NCBI RefSeq assembly: GCF_003336875.1 | Contig: NZ_QGNJ01000001.1 | Span: 62,001-126,000, forward strand | Source: Oleisolibacter albus | GTDB taxonomy: Bacteria; Pseudomonadota; Alphaproteobacteria; Azospirillales; Azospirillaceae | Reading direction: 5' to 3' | DNA length: 64,000 nt | Shown: one piece after another, positions 46,544-53,432 of the stretch | Layout of the letters: each line of letters starts with the position of its first letter | How positions within the stretch are numbered: position 1 is the first letter of the stretch | Position numbers and translations under genes: made by a program | The notes under the pieces: model-generated | Seen by the model: only the letters and a program-made list of their open reading frames with translations | Told to the model about the DNA's origin: nothing | The model's database searches: none

Positions 46544-46619
46544 GATCCCGTAGCTCAGTCGGTAGAGCACGTGACTTTTAATCATGGGGCCGTGGGTTCG
46601 AATCCCACCGGGATCACCA
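46544..46619 (+). tRNA. tRNA-Lys (anticodon TTT)
   Basis: Acceptor GATCCCG pairs with CGGGATC, discriminator A, CCA encoded. The anticodon loop is CTTTTAA, with TTT. Length 76 nucleotides. No recognisable U-rich terminator follows directly. Confidence 0.97.
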
Positions 46620-47323: not shown

Positions 47324-49006
47324 ATGGCGCACCTTTCCGATCTCCCGATTCGTATCCGCATCTTTCTGGCTTTCGGCCTGGTCATGCTGGTGACCCTGGG
47401 GCTGGGGGCGTTCGCGCTGTGGCAACTGCGTACCATCAACGATGCCGCCGACAGGGTCGTGCTGCGGAGTCTGCCCTCGGTCATCACCAGCAATCTGATG
47501 CTGGAGGATGTGCTGGATTTCCGCCGGAATCAGGCGGCGACGCTGCTGGCCACCGATCCGGCGACCAGAGCGGAACGCCATGCCGCCATGGCGGCGCTGG
47601 TGCCCCATATCGCCGAGCAGCGCCGCGCCTACGAGGCGCTGATCACCACGGAACGGCCCCTGATCGAGCAGTTCGACCAGGCCTGGGCTCAGGTTCTGGC
47701 CACGGCGACGGTGATCGACGACCGGCTGGGCGCCGGCGATCAGGCGGGCGCCATGGCCCTTTACAACGGTGCCAGCCGCAGTGCCACCGACGCCGCTGTG
47801 GGCGCACTGAAGCAGGTGGTCCATGCCAGTGACGAAAGCGGGCAGGCGGCCGGTGTGGTCATCGAGGAGACGACCCACCATGCGCGCATCGGCACGCTAC
47901 TGGCGCTGGTGATTGCCGCGGGCCTGTCGATCGGAGCTGGCGCCATCCTGGTCATCACCATCGCCGTGCCGACCCGGCACCTGACCGAGATCATGCGGCG
48001 CCTGTCGCGTCGGGAACTGACGACCGTGGTCGAGGGGACGGCGCGCCGCGACGAGATCGGTGCCATGGCACGCGCCGTCGAGCAGTTCAAACTCGGTTTG
48101 ATCGAGGTCGAGCGCTTGAGCGCCATCCAGGCGGCAGCGGAACAGGCCAAGGCCGAACGGGCCGCGCGGATCGACCAGCTGATCGCGGTCTTCGACGGGG
48201 CGGTGAGCGGAACCCTGCACAGTTTCGCCAATGCCGCGGCAGAGCTGGATGCCACGGCCCGGAGCCTGAGCGCCATTGCCGAGGAAACCAGCCGTCAGGC
48301 CACCGCGGCGTCCGGCGCGGCCGAACAGACCACGGCCAATGTGCAGACCATTGCCGGCGCCACCGAAGAACTGGCCGTCAGCGTCGGCGAAATCAGCCGC
48401 GAGGTTGCCCGTGCCAAGGATACGGCTCGGCGCGCCTCCGACAATGGGCGCCAGACCAACATCATCGTGGGAGGGCTGACCGAAGCCGTGGGCCGCATCG
48501 GCGAGATCATGGATCTGATCCAGGCCATCGCCAGCCAGACCAATCTGCTGGCCCTGAACGCCACCATCGAGGCGGCGCGGGCGGGCGAGGCCGGAAAGGG
48601 GTTCGCCGTTGTGGCCTCGGAGGTCAAGACATTGGCCACGCAGACGGCCAGGGCCACGGACGAGATCGGCACCCATGTGGCCACGGTGCAGAAGGTCTCG
48701 GCCGACACATCCGAGTCCATCGGCATCGTCATCGGCACCATTGCCGAGGTCGACCAGATCTCCGCCAGTATCGCTGCCTCCATCGAGCAGCAGGGCGCAG
48801 CGACCGGCGAGATCAGCCGCAACATCGCCCAGGTGGCCACGGGCATCGGGGAAATGTCGGGCAATGTGGACCAGGTGAAGGACGCCACGGCCCACGCCGG
48901 TGTCGCTGCCGGGCAGGTGCTGTCGGCCGCCAATGAACTGTCTCAGCAGTCCGAAGTTTTAAAACGTGATGTCGAGCGTTTCTTGCTTGCCATCCGTGCC
49001 GCCTGA
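47324..49006 (+). CDS. Methyl-accepting chemotaxis protein
   Basis: A 560-residue chemoreceptor with the classical topology. Membrane helices are at about 12-34 and 190-214, enclosing a periplasmic four-helix bundle (about 40-185). A HAMP domain (about 215-267) follows, then a long coiled-coil signalling domain whose hairpin tip contains [21 protein letters not shown] and VASEVKTLA. No C-terminal CheR/CheB-tethering pentapeptide is present (ends LLAIRAA). The ligand is unknown; the four-helix-bundle class usually senses small molecules. It precedes the CheZ-like/partner-switch genes. Confidence 0.94.
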
Positions 49007-49282
49007 CGGCGGCAAACGGTCTGCCCGGCGTGACGGGGCTGACCTTACGGATAGTCCAGCGCGGGGCACGGACTGGCGCCCCCGCGCTCCATATTGTCCT
49101 GTTAACAAAAAATCAATTTCAGGATCAATAGTTTGGAGGGGGATTCCGTTTGGATGACTTCATGGCGTCCGTCTCTGCCGCCCTCTTGTCTTCTCCTCTC
49201 CGGGACACTTAACCCTTTTGCGTAGTTCAAGGGGCTATACCCCAAATTATAGACTGCCGGCAGGTATTCAGGGGCGGTGGAC

Positions 49283-49468
49283 ATGACGAATAGACGAAGC
49301 CAGGCGCCAGCGCGGGAGGAGGCACAGCCCGGCGGCCTTCTCACCGGGTTCCGGCAGACCCATGTCTATAACCAGGCCTCGCCGGAAGAGCAGATCCAGT
49401 TGGAATCCTTCCTGCGCGACCTGAACAACGTGTCGCTGGATATCCGGTTGAAGTTGCTTGGCCACTGA
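49283..49468 (+). CDS. Small hypothetical protein, 61 residues
   Basis: A short soluble protein with a disordered polar N-terminus and a predicted amphipathic helix at the end (PEEQIQLESFLRDLNNVSLDIRLKLLG). An in-frame GTG lies two codons upstream at 49277. It is followed by a perfect 12-bp hairpin, which supports an independent short transcript. I do not recognise the family; its place between a chemoreceptor and CheZ-like gene suggests a motility or signalling link. Confidence 0.6.
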   Translation: MTNRRSQAPAREEAQPGGLLTGFRQTHVYNQASPEEQIQLESFLRDLNNVSLDIRLKLLGH

Positions 49469-49498
49469 CGGGCCTGCTGGCCGCACGTGTCGGGGTGG

Positions 49499-49530
49499 GC
49501 ATCGCCCGGCAGGGTAAAGCCGGGCGATGC
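49499..49530 (+). terminator. Perfect 12-bp hairpin after the 61-residue gene
   Basis: Arms GCATCGCCCGGC (49499-49510) and GCCGGGCGATGC (49519-49530) with an 8-base loop. No U-run. Confidence 0.65.
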
Positions 49531-49897
49531 GGATGGCCGGTAATGCCGATACAGTGGCCGATACAGTGAAGACCGGGCTGGTTCGATACGGAGTCAGGTT
49601 GTCTGGGGTGCTTCCAATTGCATTGTGCGCGCTGCTGACCCGCTGAAGCATCGGTAAGGGCTAGAACCAGGCGAACCGGAACTGTTGTGCGGTGTCAGCG
49701 AATGCGCGTTTTTTACGCATCCTTAAAAACACGGGTAAGACAGATATGGTTTAACTCGTGATCGCTGGTTTTCGCGGCCGGATACTGCGTAAGCGTAGAG
49801 CGGACAGTGTTTGGCAGGCCTAAGCCATTGGTGGTAGGTATGGAGAAATGACCGGGCACAGGCGGCCGCAGGGGCCGGTGAGCCGTCCGGTGATGCG
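49531..49897. other. Long leader region of the CheZ/partner-switch operon
   Basis: No gene is supported. Visible elements are a 12-bp direct repeat GCCGATACAGTG twice in tandem (49545-49568), a small inverted pair ATGCG / CGCAT around a T-run (49702-49720), and a possible promoter TTAAAA (49723-49728), 16 bases, TATGGT (49745-49750). The stretch 49690-49790 is clearly AT-richer than the surroundings, as expected for the control region. Confidence 0.5.
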
Positions 49898-50725
49898 ATG
49901 GGGTTCCAGTCCGTGCACGAAATGGGTAAGACCAGCGGCCTCACTGAAGCCGATTACAGCAGGATCTACGACAAGATCGCCCTGTCGCCCGAAGGCTTGG
50001 CGTTCCTGCGGGAGCATGCCCGGCGCGCGGCCCAGGTCGGACAGTCGCAGATGCGGACCATCACCGCGGATCTGCGCAAGCTGCTGCGTCAGCACACCGA
50101 AACGATCCAGGCCGCCGGCCGGGTCGAAGCCCTGCGCCGTGAACTGCTGGAAATGGCAGCCTCCATCGAGCAGGCCCGGCGCGAGATCGCGGCGCTTCAG
50201 CCCAAGGAAGCCGGATCGAACCGTCTGCTGATCGCTTCCAGCGAATTGGACGCCATTGTCAGCACCACCGAGCGGGCCTCCTTCGATATCCTCCAGGCCG
50301 CGGAAAGACTGTTGGACGTGGCCGGGAAGCTGCGGCGCCAGGGGGCGGATGCCACGCTCTGCGATGTCATCGACAATGAGGTCACCAACATCTTCACCGC
50401 CTGTTCCTTCCAGGATCTGACGGGACAGCGCACCAGCAAGGTCATCAATGCCCTGCGCTATGTGGAGCAGCGGGTCAATGCCATGCTGACCATCTGGAGC
50501 ATGGAGGGCGTGCGGGCGGCCGACGATGGGGAGGAGGCCGACCAGCGGCCCGATGCCCATCTGCTGAGCGGGCCGCGCAATGACGGCGTGAACCAGGATG
50601 ATGTCGACGCGCTGCTGTCGGGCACGGCCCCGGCCCGCGCCGAGGCGGAGATACCGGTGCAGGAGACGGCGCAACAACCGCGCACCCCGCTGGACCAGTC
50701 CGCCATCGACAACCTGTTCGACTGA
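49898..50725 (+). CDS. cheZ: CheZ-like protein phosphatase
   Basis: A 275-residue mostly helical protein. The CheZ catalytic motif is intact: FQDLTGQ at 171-177, with D173 and Q177 matching D143/Q147 of E. coli CheZ, followed by TSKVINALRYVEQRV. A coiled-coil hairpin covers about 50-200. The C-terminal part (205-275) is disordered and carries two short CheY-binding-type helices, QDDVDALLSG (233-242) and DQSAIDNLFD at the very end. E. coli CheZ ends similarly (DDLLDSLGF) and FliM starts similarly. Starts at 49898 or 49922. It should dephosphorylate a CheY-type regulator. First gene of the four-gene run. Confidence 0.87.
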   Translation: MGFQSVHEMGKTSGLTEADYSRIYDKIALSPEGLAFLREHARRAAQVGQSQMRTITADLRKLLRQHTETIQAAGRVEALRRELLEMAASIEQARREIAALQPKEAGSNRLLIASSELDAIVSTTERASFDILQAAERLLDVAGKLRRQGADATLCDVIDNEVTNIFTACSFQDLTGQRTSKVINALRYVEQRVNAMLTIWSMEGVRAADDGEEADQRPDAHLLSGPRNDGVNQDDVDALLSGTAPARAEAEIPVQETAQQPRTPLDQSAIDNLFD

Positions 50726-50739
50726 CAGTCACGGAGACC

Positions 50740-51048
50740 ATGATGGACTACGCGGTCCAGTCCACCGATCAGGGGCTCAACATATCCCTGACCGGACGCA
50801 TGACCCTGATCGATCACGACAAGTTCCGGGCGGTGGTGGACAGTATCGAGCGGCTGAATGGCGGCATCTGCATCTTCGACCTGCGCGGGCTGGAGTTCAT
50901 CGACAGTTCCGGACTGGGCATGTTCCTGATCGCCCGCGATGTGGCCCAGCCCAAAGGCGTCGATATCCAGTTGCTTGGTGCCCAGGACGCCGTTCGCCGC
51001 ATTCTGCAGATCGCCAAGTTCCACACCCTGTTCAAGATCGCCCCCTGA
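50740..51048 (+). CDS. STAS-domain anti-sigma-factor antagonist
   Basis: A 102-residue single STAS domain of the SpoIIAA/RsbV type. The phosphorylation loop is FIDSSGLG (53-60), with S56 at the position phosphorylated in RsbV. The fold runs from the N-terminal strand YAVQSTDQGLNISLTG to the C-terminal helix HTLFKIAP. It should switch between a kinase-bound and a free state. It starts 14 bases after the cheZ stop, with an ATGATG start, and stands 5 bases before the kinase gene. Confidence 0.92.
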   Translation: MMDYAVQSTDQGLNISLTGRMTLIDHDKFRAVVDSIERLNGGICIFDLRGLEFIDSSGLGMFLIARDVAQPKGVDIQLLGAQDAVRRILQIAKFHTLFKIAP

Positions 51049-51053
51049 CCATC

Positions 51054-51761
51054 GTGCCGGCCCCAGGTGACAACAGGCCCCGGATCGGGGCGCCAGATCT
51101 CGACCCTGCCGTGGTGCGGACCTTGGCTGACCGGCTGGGCTGCGCGATCGGTAGTGACGAGGGGGCTGCGATCGTCCTGCTGCATCCGGCTTCGGATACG
51201 GGGGTCAGCCGCGCCGTCGCCGCCGGAGCGCGGCTGCTGATGGATGTGCCGGTCCTGGAGGAGGTGCAGGCGCTGCTCGGCGGTGCGGAGCCGGAGCCGG
51301 GGAGCCTGCGCCTGTCGCTGGCCAGCGGATCGGCCTTTCGCATCAACGTGGCCATGTCGCTCTGTTCCGGCCTGGTGGAGCGTGGCTGGCTGCACCCCGG
51401 CCGTCAGGTCGATGTGGAACTCTGCCTGCATGAGGCCGTGGTCAATGCCGTCACCCATGGCAATCTGGAGCTGCAACGCTGCGCCGATGGTGACAGCGGC
51501 TTCGCCGACCGGCTGGACTCCGTCTATTACCAGTTGACCCTGATGCCCTTCGCGGCGCGCCGCGTCGTCATCGATGTCGGGCGGCGGGCGGATGGCGGCC
51601 TGACCATCGACATCCAGGACCAGGGCAAAGGCTTCGATCCAACCGCACCGACCGGCGGCACCACCTATTCCGGCCGGGGCATGACCATCATGCGCGAACT
51701 GGCGGAGCGGGTCAGCCACCGGGATGGCGGTCGCCGCCTCTGTCTGGAGTTCCGGCCATGA
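51054..51761 (+). CDS. HATPase anti-sigma factor / serine kinase (RsbW-like)
   Basis: A 235-residue protein. The GHKL ATPase half (about 90-235) has N-box ELCLHEAVVNAVTHGN (122-137), G1 box DQGKGFD (189-195) and G2 box GRGM (207-210). The N-terminal about 85 residues are an extra domain with no match that I know. As in RsbW/SpoIIAB it should bind and phosphorylate the neighbouring STAS protein. Start is taken as GTG at 51054, five bases after the STAS stop, with no Shine-Dalgarno, so reinitiation is likely. Its stop overlaps the next gene by four bases. Confidence 0.85.
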   Translation: MPAPGDNRPRIGAPDLDPAVVRTLADRLGCAIGSDEGAAIVLLHPASDTGVSRAVAAGARLLMDVPVLEEVQALLGGAEPEPGSLRLSLASGSAFRINVAMSLCSGLVERGWLHPGRQVDVELCLHEAVVNAVTHGNLELQRCADGDSGFADRLDSVYYQLTLMPFAARRVVIDVGRRADGGLTIDIQDQGKGFDPTAPTGGTTYSGRGMTIMRELAERVSHRDGGRRLCLEFRP

Positions 51762-52957
51762 GCGCCGGCCTGCCGCCGGACGCCCGACCGGAGACGGTCG
51801 AGAACGTGCCGCTGGCGGATTGCCGGGTGCTGGTGGTGGATGACAGCCGGTTCAGCCGGGCCATGCTGCGCCGGCTGCTGGAATGGGTCGGCATCCGCAC
51901 GGTGCTGGAGGCCGGGGACGGCGAGCAGGGGTTGGCCCTGCTGGGTGAAACCAATGCCGATCTCGTCATCGCCGATGTGGACATGCCGCGGATGGACGGG
52001 CTGGAATTCTGCCGGCGCATCCGTGAGGTGCCGGCCTGGTCGGGCCTGCCGGTGCTGATGCAGATCTCGGCGGCCAGCGATCCGGCCGGCATGCGCTCGT
52101 TCGAGGCCGGGGCCAACGACATCATCTCCAAGCCGTTGAATGCCGGCGAATGCATGGCGCGTATCCGTCTGCATTTGGAAAAGCAGTTCTATGTCCGCCG
52201 CTTGAGCCAGTTTCACCGGCGCCTGGCCAGCGATCTGCGCCTGGCCCGCGGCATGCAGATGTCGCTGATCCCGGACGCAGCGGCACAGCAGGCCCTGGCG
52301 GCCCGGCACGGACTGGCCCTCAGCGGGCATTTCGAATCCTCCGAGGAACTGGGGGGCGATTTCTGGACGCTGTTCGATCTGTCGCCGCACCAGCTGGGCG
52401 TGCTGATCGCCGATTTCTCCGGCCACGGTGTGTCCGCCGCCATCAACACCTTCCGCTTCCATACGCTGATCGAGCGGATGCCGCCGCAGGGCCATGAGCC
52501 GGGGGTGTGGCTGGCCCAGCTCAACCAGCCCCTGAAGGATCTGTTGCCGATCGGGCAGTTCGCCACCTGCTTCTATGGCGTCATCGACACCGCCGCCAAC
52601 ACGCTGAGCTATGCGGCCGCCGGTGCGCCGAGTCCGCTGCTGCTCGACAGCGATGGCCGGGTCACGCCGCTGGACGCCAGCGGCCTGATGCTGGGCATCT
52701 CCTCGGCACCGCTGCTGACGGTGGACCAACTGCCCTTCGGGCCGGGCGCATCCCTGCTGCTGTACAGCGATGCCCTGACCGAAGCCATCGATCAGCGCAG
52801 CGGCGGCATGATCGGGGAAGAGGGGCTGATGCCCCTGGCCATCCACGCCTTCACGGGCGGGGCGGAGCCGTTGCCGCGGCTCCTGGCGGCCTTTGACGGC
52901 GTGGCCCGGCGCCCGCTGAGCGACGATCTGACAATCATCTGCATCCACCGCCCCTGA
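51758..52957 (+). CDS. Response regulator - PP2C-type (RsbU/SpoIIE) phosphatase
   Basis: A 399-residue two-domain regulator. The receiver domain (about 20-140) has D28/D29 acidic pair, phospho-acceptor D73 (ADVDMPRMDG) and K125 (SKPLN). A helical linker (about 140-170) leads to a PPM/SpoIIE phosphatase (about 180-399). This has metal-binding residues in GGDFW (D201), DFSGHG (D219) and SDDLT (D389/D390). Phosphorylation of the receiver should control dephosphorylation of the STAS protein. Coupled to the kinase gene by ATGA overlap. No histidine kinase is encoded here. Confidence 0.93.
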   Translation: MSAGLPPDARPETVENVPLADCRVLVVDDSRFSRAMLRRLLEWVGIRTVLEAGDGEQGLALLGETNADLVIADVDMPRMDGLEFCRRIREVPAWSGLPVLMQISAASDPAGMRSFEAGANDIISKPLNAGECMARIRLHLEKQFYVRRLSQFHRRLASDLRLARGMQMSLIPDAAAQQALAARHGLALSGHFESSEELGGDFWTLFDLSPHQLGVLIADFSGHGVSAAINTFRFHTLIERMPPQGHEPGVWLAQLNQPLKDLLPIGQFATCFYGVIDTAANTLSYAAAGAPSPLLLDSDGRVTPLDASGLMLGISSAPLLTVDQLPFGPGASLLLYSDALTEAIDQRSGGMIGEEGLMPLAIHAFTGGAEPLPRLLAAFDGVARRPLSDDLTIICIHRP

Positions 52958-52958
52958 G

Positions 52959-53432
52959 TCAGCCGATCAGATGCCAGCGCCCGTCGGACTGGCGGCAGGC
53001 GGTGCCGCTGGCCTGCTCGGGCTTGCCCTCGATATAGACGGTATGGGTATAGGCGCGGCACAGATTGCCGTCGGCGTCGGTATAGGTCCGCACCGGCTCG
53101 ACATTGCCGCTGTTGCCGCTGTCGGGATTGTTCCAGCGGATGGTCTCGTTGCGGCTGACGGCCGCTTCCTCGGCCCGGCTGGCCCGCTCCTGGTCGGCAT
53201 CGCTCATGCTGCTGGCCACGGCCCGGCCGGCCAGACCGCCCAGCACGGCACCCAGGGCGGTGGTGGCGAACTTGCCCGAGCCGCCGCCGAACTGTGATCC
53301 CAGCAGCGCACCGCCGGCGGCCCCACCCAGGGTGCCGATGGTCTCGTTCGACGGCCCCTGGCCCTGCGCACAGGCGCCGAGAACCAGTGTGGCCGCGATG
53401 GCCGCGGCCATGCCGCCACGACGATGATCCAT
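52959..53432 (-). CDS. Glycine-zipper surface lipoprotein (17 kDa antigen / RT0821 type)
   Basis: A 157-residue outer-membrane lipoprotein. The lipobox is VLGAC with C21 as lipidation site. A glycine zipper (about 33-70; GTLGGAAGGALLGSQFGGG and GAVLGGLAGRA) inserts into the membrane. A C-terminal domain follows with two cysteines and CRAYTHTVYIEGKPEQASGTACR-type pattern seen in rickettsial 17 kDa antigens. Starts at 53450 and 53411 are alternatives. It is convergent with the response-regulator gene (one base between stops) and divergent from the ABC exporter. Confidence 0.85.
   Translation of the reverse strand: MDHRRGGMAAAIAATLVLGACAQGQGPSNETIGTLGGAAGGALLGSQFGGGSGKFATTALGAVLGGLAGRAVASSMSDADQERASRAEEAAVSRNETIRWNNPDSGNSGNVEPVRTYTDADGNLCRAYTHTVYIEGKPEQASGTACRQSDGRWHLIG

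Follow-up and report, generated by a model that had tools for sequence, protein, structure and literature searches.

Gene organization of the cheZ-STAS-HATPase-PP2C module

CheZ is usually treated as a phosphatase of CheY only. In a 64 kb stretch of the Oleisolibacter albus genome (the window, whose positions serve as gene coordinates below), a cheZ gene heads a run of genes encoding a STAS protein, a HATPase and a receiver-PP2C protein, and we analyzed this four-gene module, its conservation and the putative role of its CheZ. Checking the open reading frames of the region confirmed six, all on the + strand and at the coordinates given in a preliminary description of this DNA. Four of them form the module:

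49898-50725, + strand: cheZ, clade E of the tree described below (Pfam PF04344, 7.9e-11); probable true start 49922
50740-51048, + strand: STAS protein of the RsbV/SpoIIAA type (Pfam STAS, 1.5e-11); Ser56 codon 50905-50907
51054-51761, + strand: RsbW-type GHKL ATPase (Pfam HATPase_c_2, 5e-12)
51758-52957, + strand: receiver-PP2C protein of the RsbU/SpoIIE type (Response_reg, 5.9e-25; SpoIIE, 8.9e-39); Asp73 codon 51974-51976

The matches to STAS, HATPase_c_2, Response_reg and SpoIIE all exceed the Pfam cut-offs, and CheZ scored 42.7 bits against a cut-off of 30.7. The spacing reported in the preliminary description proved exact, with gaps of 14 bases between cheZ and STAS and 5 bases between STAS and HATPase and an overlap of 4 bases between HATPase and receiver-PP2C, and the catalytic motifs are intact. 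Its view that the last three proteins make up a complete RsbV/RsbW/RsbU set is borne out by the retention of the STAS serine, the GHKL N-box and the PP2C metal aspartates. In the DSSGLG loop of STAS, for which the window's genome yielded no second protein of this type, D55 and S56 are invariant in 16 homologs; the HATPase has the N-box and glycine boxes, with the motifs HEAVxNAxxHGN and SGRG, the key motif being HEAVVNAVTHGN; and GGD, DFSGHG, SDA and DDL of the PP2C, together with D73 of the receiver, are invariant in nine orthologs. A phosphorylatable STAS serine, an RsbW-like GHKL kinase and a PPM/SpoIIE phosphatase, as in RsbU/RsbV/RsbW-type switches, are predicted from these sequences. The AlphaFold model of the HATPase (predicted local distance difference test, pLDDT, 85) found its best PDB fold match in LvrC (1.8e-9), the RsbV/RsbW complex matching at 1.6e-3. 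The N-terminal part resembles a truncated receiver of which only the last strands are left, with no conserved phosphoacceptor.

Inspection by eye of the gene list of the whole 64 kb recognised no CheA, no CheY and no sigma factor, a cognate one for the switch included, in keeping with what had been said earlier of the nearby genes. No CheA/CheW/CheR/CheB set, as in F7 or alternative cellular function (ACF) chemosensory clusters, lies near the module in that list, and the cheW matches of the genome sit on other contigs. Gram-negative partner switches do not require a sigma factor gene alongside.

Conservation of the module

The family survey covered 82 genomes of 13 genera, with ortholog thresholds of >300 bits for CheZ and >500 bits for PP2C; the Niveispirillum genus as grouped here, made up of soil and water bacteria, includes the window's organism. 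Ten genomes have a CheZ ortholog; nine of them belong to the Niveispirillum genus and the tenth to a different genus. PP2C orthologs were found in the same ten and in two fragmented genomes of the Niveispirillum genus, which hold the downstream part alone (one contig begins inside STAS, the other inside or just before HATPase). In 10/10 genomes cheZ, STAS, HATPase and PP2C are adjacent and in the same order. The module CheZs of the relatives show 59-66% identity and the HATPases only 32-38% identity to the window's protein, and gene order has therefore outlasted much sequence change. Because the order is kept in ten genomes despite the divergence of the proteins, the run is not a product of chance. 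The four genes belong together as a unit that is conserved en bloc (hereafter also the cassette), and the single expression unit deduced earlier fits the order kept in the relatives. We conclude that the module is real, conserved and discrete, and that the mechanism proposed below is plausible.

The neighbourhood could also reflect descent only, cheZ having landed beside the switch genes with no functional coupling and the order having been kept by slow rearrangement. The restriction of the cassette to two genera would agree with this, but the order and the near-zero spacing persist despite the HATPase divergence and a left flank that is rearranged in several species, and we consider descent alone very improbable.

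In a wider scan, with one genome per GTDB species, STAS-HATPase-PP2C stood behind CheZ at only 7 of 80 CheZ loci, all of the Niveispirillum group. Conservation across Rhodospirillales, as envisaged in the preliminary description, was not what we found; the module is limited to the Niveispirillum group and one further genus. Neither a CheZ nor a PP2C ortholog above threshold was present in the nine genomes of three genera (g2, g3 and g10). In a genome of another genus, G018 (L050:4219-14719), STAS-HATPase-PP2C lies a few genes from cheA-cheW-cheY-cheB-cheR.

Sequence and origin of the module CheZ

Three sites were located in the CheZ reading frame:

50408-50428, + strand: catalytic motif FQDLTGQ (D codon 50414-50416, Q codon 50426-50428)
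50591-50623, + strand: first CheY-docking-like motif, NQDDVDALLSG, in all module CheZs; a short helix in the model
50690-50722, + strand: second, C-terminal docking-like motif, LDQSAIDNLFD, from alignment, model and paralog comparison

FQDLTGQ is invariant in 10/10 module CheZs and occurs in 75 of 78 paralogs, with DVTGQ in two more. The docking-like motifs, predicted to be binding peptides, resemble the CheZ-tail and FliM peptides. CheZ proteins fold as a four-helix-bundle hairpin; the model of the module CheZ predicts long helices (confidence 68, predicted template modelling score, pTM, 0.28) but had no PDB match and is too weak for use; the CheZ profile likewise gave no match to PDB sequences. 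The annotated start at 49898 is probably about eight codons early, because the relatives, whose CheZ reading begins near 49922 in the alignment, support the later position. Some CheZ paralogs in relatives possess proline/alanine-rich tails with arrays of up to eight docking-like motifs (QSDIDALF;L085:5582-7039, - strand; L089:2349-3497, + strand; L113:2613-3719, + strand), possibly for multivalent CheY binding.

The paired motifs raise the prospect of a two-way link, in which they would hold both CheY-P and receiver-PP2C, so that chemotaxis and the switch compete for the phosphatase. Two conserved docking-like motifs, in an operon without CheA or CheY to supply phosphate directly, are consistent with such competition. 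Many non-module CheZs also carry two or more motifs, however, so the feature is not special to the module, and we judge the two-way link unlikely.

Most genomes of the family hold four to six CheZ matches; E. coli has one cheZ. In a tree of 78 CheZ sequences, the ten module CheZs form one clade (support 100/100), which adjoins the CheZs of Azospirillum-like genera. Most of these sister CheZs come immediately after a single-domain cheY and are usually followed by a second cheZ, whereas the sole receiver near the module CheZ is that of the PP2C. Because its nearest relatives mostly sit behind cheY, the module CheZ has changed neighbours, from CheY to a receiver-bearing operon. In the Niveispirillum group, cheY is paired with a CheZ of another clade (D). 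The window's genome has no clade D CheZ, and its cheY (C1:541089), about 428 kb from the module on the same contig, has no CheZ neighbour:

G000 C1:541071-541457 (L198:6072-6458): cheY ortholog of the window's genome; the CheZ beside it in relatives is lost

These data bear on a rival explanation, namely that the clade E CheZ still dephosphorylates CheY and that its place in the operon merely ties the amount of CheZ, and hence reversal bias, to expression of the switch/PilZ operon. The core, catalytic motif and docking motifs of the module CheZ are those of CheY-acting CheZs, and the window's cheY, lacking the adjacent CheZ of the relatives' cheY-cheZ pairs, must be served by another CheZ. On the other hand, several cassette relatives keep a cheY-adjacent clade D CheZ, so a CheY phosphatase is not missing from them, and three further CheZs are encoded in the window's genome, one of which stands next to fliM and mot-like genes. 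We regard continued action on CheY as a serious possibility, though not a probable one.

PilZ, the cassette site and the operon start

In every relative with readable sequence, the two fragmented genomes included, a PilZ gene closely follows PP2C and ends the operon. The PilZ protein has the RxxxR and DxSxxG motifs of cyclic di-GMP (c-di-GMP) binders; in the other genus its N-terminus is more divergent. In the window, positions 52958-53420, between PP2C and a lipoprotein gene, contain neither PilZ nor the Sel1-type gene found there in G022 and G012; the window's organism has lost PilZ. Its relocation was rejected, as neither of two PilZ matches on other contigs of the genome matches the module PilZ (tblastn). 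The c-di-GMP link suggested in the preliminary description gains physical support from the PilZ gene of the relatives, though not from the window, which lacks it.

Three features lie upstream of the cassette:

47324-49006, + strand: chemoreceptor (Pfam 4HB_MCP_1, HAMP and MCPsignal), outside the module
49277-49468, + strand: tiny protein of 63 residues, no Pfam family; flanks the cassette site, outside the cassette
49810-49843, + strand: element conserved ahead of cheZ, with its core TGGTGGTAG at 49829-49837; distance to the probable CheZ start about 85 bases

The first two had been placed just upstream; their positions are right, but the wording is loose, the chemoreceptor gene being separated from the tiny gene by 270 bases and the latter from cheZ by 429. 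Searched with a 60-position profile, the tiny protein was found in three cassette genomes and in 9/9 genomes of g2, g3 and g10. In the examined genomes of these three genera the PilZ gene, confirmed by Pfam, adjoins the tiny gene, the order in g3 and g10 being gyrA-coaD-tiny-PilZ. Two cassette genomes, G004 and G022, keep both genes, with cheZ-STAS-HATPase-PP2C exactly between them. This pattern would fit insertion of the cassette between the two genes as well as its loss from the three genera. A second STAS gene stands ahead of cheZ in G004, and one stands between tiny and cheZ in Aerophototrophica crusticola (L121:6014-6310 / L038:7442-7756).

Neither neighbour is retained as part of the circuit. 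The tiny protein, considered as a NepR-like anti-sigma factor or a cassette member, was rejected as both, for it has no Pfam match and occurs independently of the cassette, beside PilZ in genera that lack it. The chemoreceptor was rejected as well, since it is near the module in the window only, no relative searched has an ortholog there, and relatives of its sensor domain lie elsewhere in all genomes searched. A tRNA-Lys gene (46544-46619) stands between coaD and the region with this window-specific chemoreceptor.

Alignment of upstream DNA placed the core TGGTGGTAG ahead of cheZ in the window and six relatives, and the full pattern, at 0-1 mismatch, occurs solely before cheZ in the four genomes searched. 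The element is a probable promoter or operator of the operon; as a regulon motif it was discarded, no clean second site being present in these four genomes. Its specificity for cheZ speaks for a transcription start downstream of the tiny gene, with the chemoreceptor outside the transcript. Scanning the region for sigma-70 promoters and terminators gave no excess over chance.

Proposed working of the switch

We tentatively favour, with somewhat less than even confidence, the reading that the cassette is inherited and constitutes a receiver-gated RsbU/RsbV/RsbW switch that has acquired a CheZ of its own; this CheZ would reset the PP2C receiver, and the output would concern c-di-GMP or motility. 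Asp73 of receiver-PP2C would be phosphorylated by a histidine kinase or Hpt protein whose gene lies elsewhere, and by analogy with the HsbR/HsbA system of Pseudomonas aeruginosa this would turn the PP2C on. The active PP2C would, as expected of its family, dephosphorylate STAS Ser56, which the HATPase would rephosphorylate. Free STAS would move from the HATPase kinase to another partner, be it an anti-sigma factor, a sigma factor or a c-di-GMP enzyme. In the central step, CheZ would dock via its two C-terminal motifs, dephosphorylate the PP2C receiver as it does CheY, and thereby reset the switch. Judged by the gene neighbourhood, CheZ probably removes phosphate from the PP2C receiver, which suggests that the switch reset by it is not the flagellar one. 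An output in c-di-GMP signalling or motility is the most likely, because the operon of the relatives also encodes a PilZ protein. This reading is supported by the invariance of the catalytic D/Q and the two docking-like motifs of CheZ, the receiver Asp, the STAS Ser and the PP2C aspartates. A bolder proposal is conceivable but more doubtful, namely that this CheZ has parted from CheY, is now devoted to the receiver of a PP2C switch and is wired into a c-di-GMP (PilZ) operon, which would make it the first CheZ to act on a response regulator outside flagellar control.

The cassette itself contains no gene for the phosphate donor. In three relatives, a hybrid histidine kinase carrying multiple receivers is encoded a few genes away (L044:1894-5829, L045:1776-5612 and L043:12660-16472); the one copy tested by Pfam, that of L044, has three receivers and an Hpt domain. 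It is a candidate phosphodonor.

Several observations weigh against the favoured reading. With four to six CheZs in most genomes, any could act on CheY. STAS-HATPase-PP2C units without CheZ occur in other genera, which shows that a switch of this kind can do without CheZ, and the window's organism has kept the rest of the cassette without PilZ. The docking face of the receiver is not CheY-like, Ile occupying the position of CheY Tyr106 (DII versus NYI in CheY), and the receiver of the other genus has lost one of two acidic-pocket Asp residues (VDAS). Group-specific positions number 6 of 137 in the receiver, 8 of 68 in the linker and 11 of 194 in the PP2C, with no enrichment in the receiver. 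Four of the six receiver positions fixed only in CheZ-linked PP2Cs fall at 104-111 (beta4-alpha4, beside the active site), a weak cluster; receiver-specific coevolution with CheZ was rejected, as this cluster alone spoke for it.

If CheZ did switch from cheY to receiver-PP2C, it would show how an aspartyl-phosphatase gains a new receiver, and would provide the 'off' step still missing from receiver-gated partner switches. Given the cassette and the natural cassette-less site (tiny-PilZ) of the sister genera, culturable species such as Niveispirillum irakense allow a direct test of the idea.

Comparison with known systems

That partner switches can receive chemosensory or phosphorelay input is already established (PMC9855816, PMC6482189, PMC5085249). 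The 'undescribed circuit' of the preliminary description is too strong, because Che1-CrsR/CrsA and HptB-HsbR/HsbA/HsbD have been published; what stands of it is the presence of CheZ in an operon of this kind, as a search of the open-licence literature yielded no paper that connects CheZ to a partner switch.

In Shewanella oneidensis, the Che1 chemosensory operon encodes a partner switch, CrsR/CrsA, acting on RpoS (PMC9855816). Like the module, it combines partner-switch and chemosensory genes, a STAS antagonist and a receiver-controlled regulator; its chemotaxis proteins are CheA/W/Y/R/B/D and chemoreceptors, without CheZ, whereas CheZ is the sole chemotaxis protein of the module. CrsR is one fused protein, unlike the separate kinase and PP2C of the module.

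The HptB-HsbR/HsbA-FlgM/HsbD system of P. aeruginosa is a phosphorelay-gated switch controlling motility and c-di-GMP (PMC5085249, PMC6482189). There, receiver phosphorylation turns the PP2C on, STAS is dephosphorylated and changes partner, and motility is set against biofilm/c-di-GMP; the module may work alike. The HsbR/HsbA region also holds a PilZ gene, as do the relatives' operons. HsbR unites kinase and phosphatase in one protein, without CheZ, whereas in the module receiver-PP2C and HATPase are separate genes, accompanied by cheZ.

F7 chemosensory clusters of stages 1-2 contain an anti-sigma factor antagonist and a serine phosphatase (PMC7184735), so that STAS and Ser phosphatase genes are linked to chemotaxis genes as in the module, which differs in having cheZ without cheA or cheY. 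LvrC of Leptospira joins a receiver to an RsbW-like Bergerat domain (PMC13269768); its receiver is canonical and phosphorylated, whereas the N-terminal domain of the module HATPase is shortened and has no conserved phosphoacceptor Asp. The closest relatives of the module CheZ itself, about 50-58% identical to it, belong to the cheY-cheZ pairs of Azospirillum, Skermanella and relatives; those CheZs follow cheY, whereas the module CheZ precedes STAS-HATPase-PP2C.

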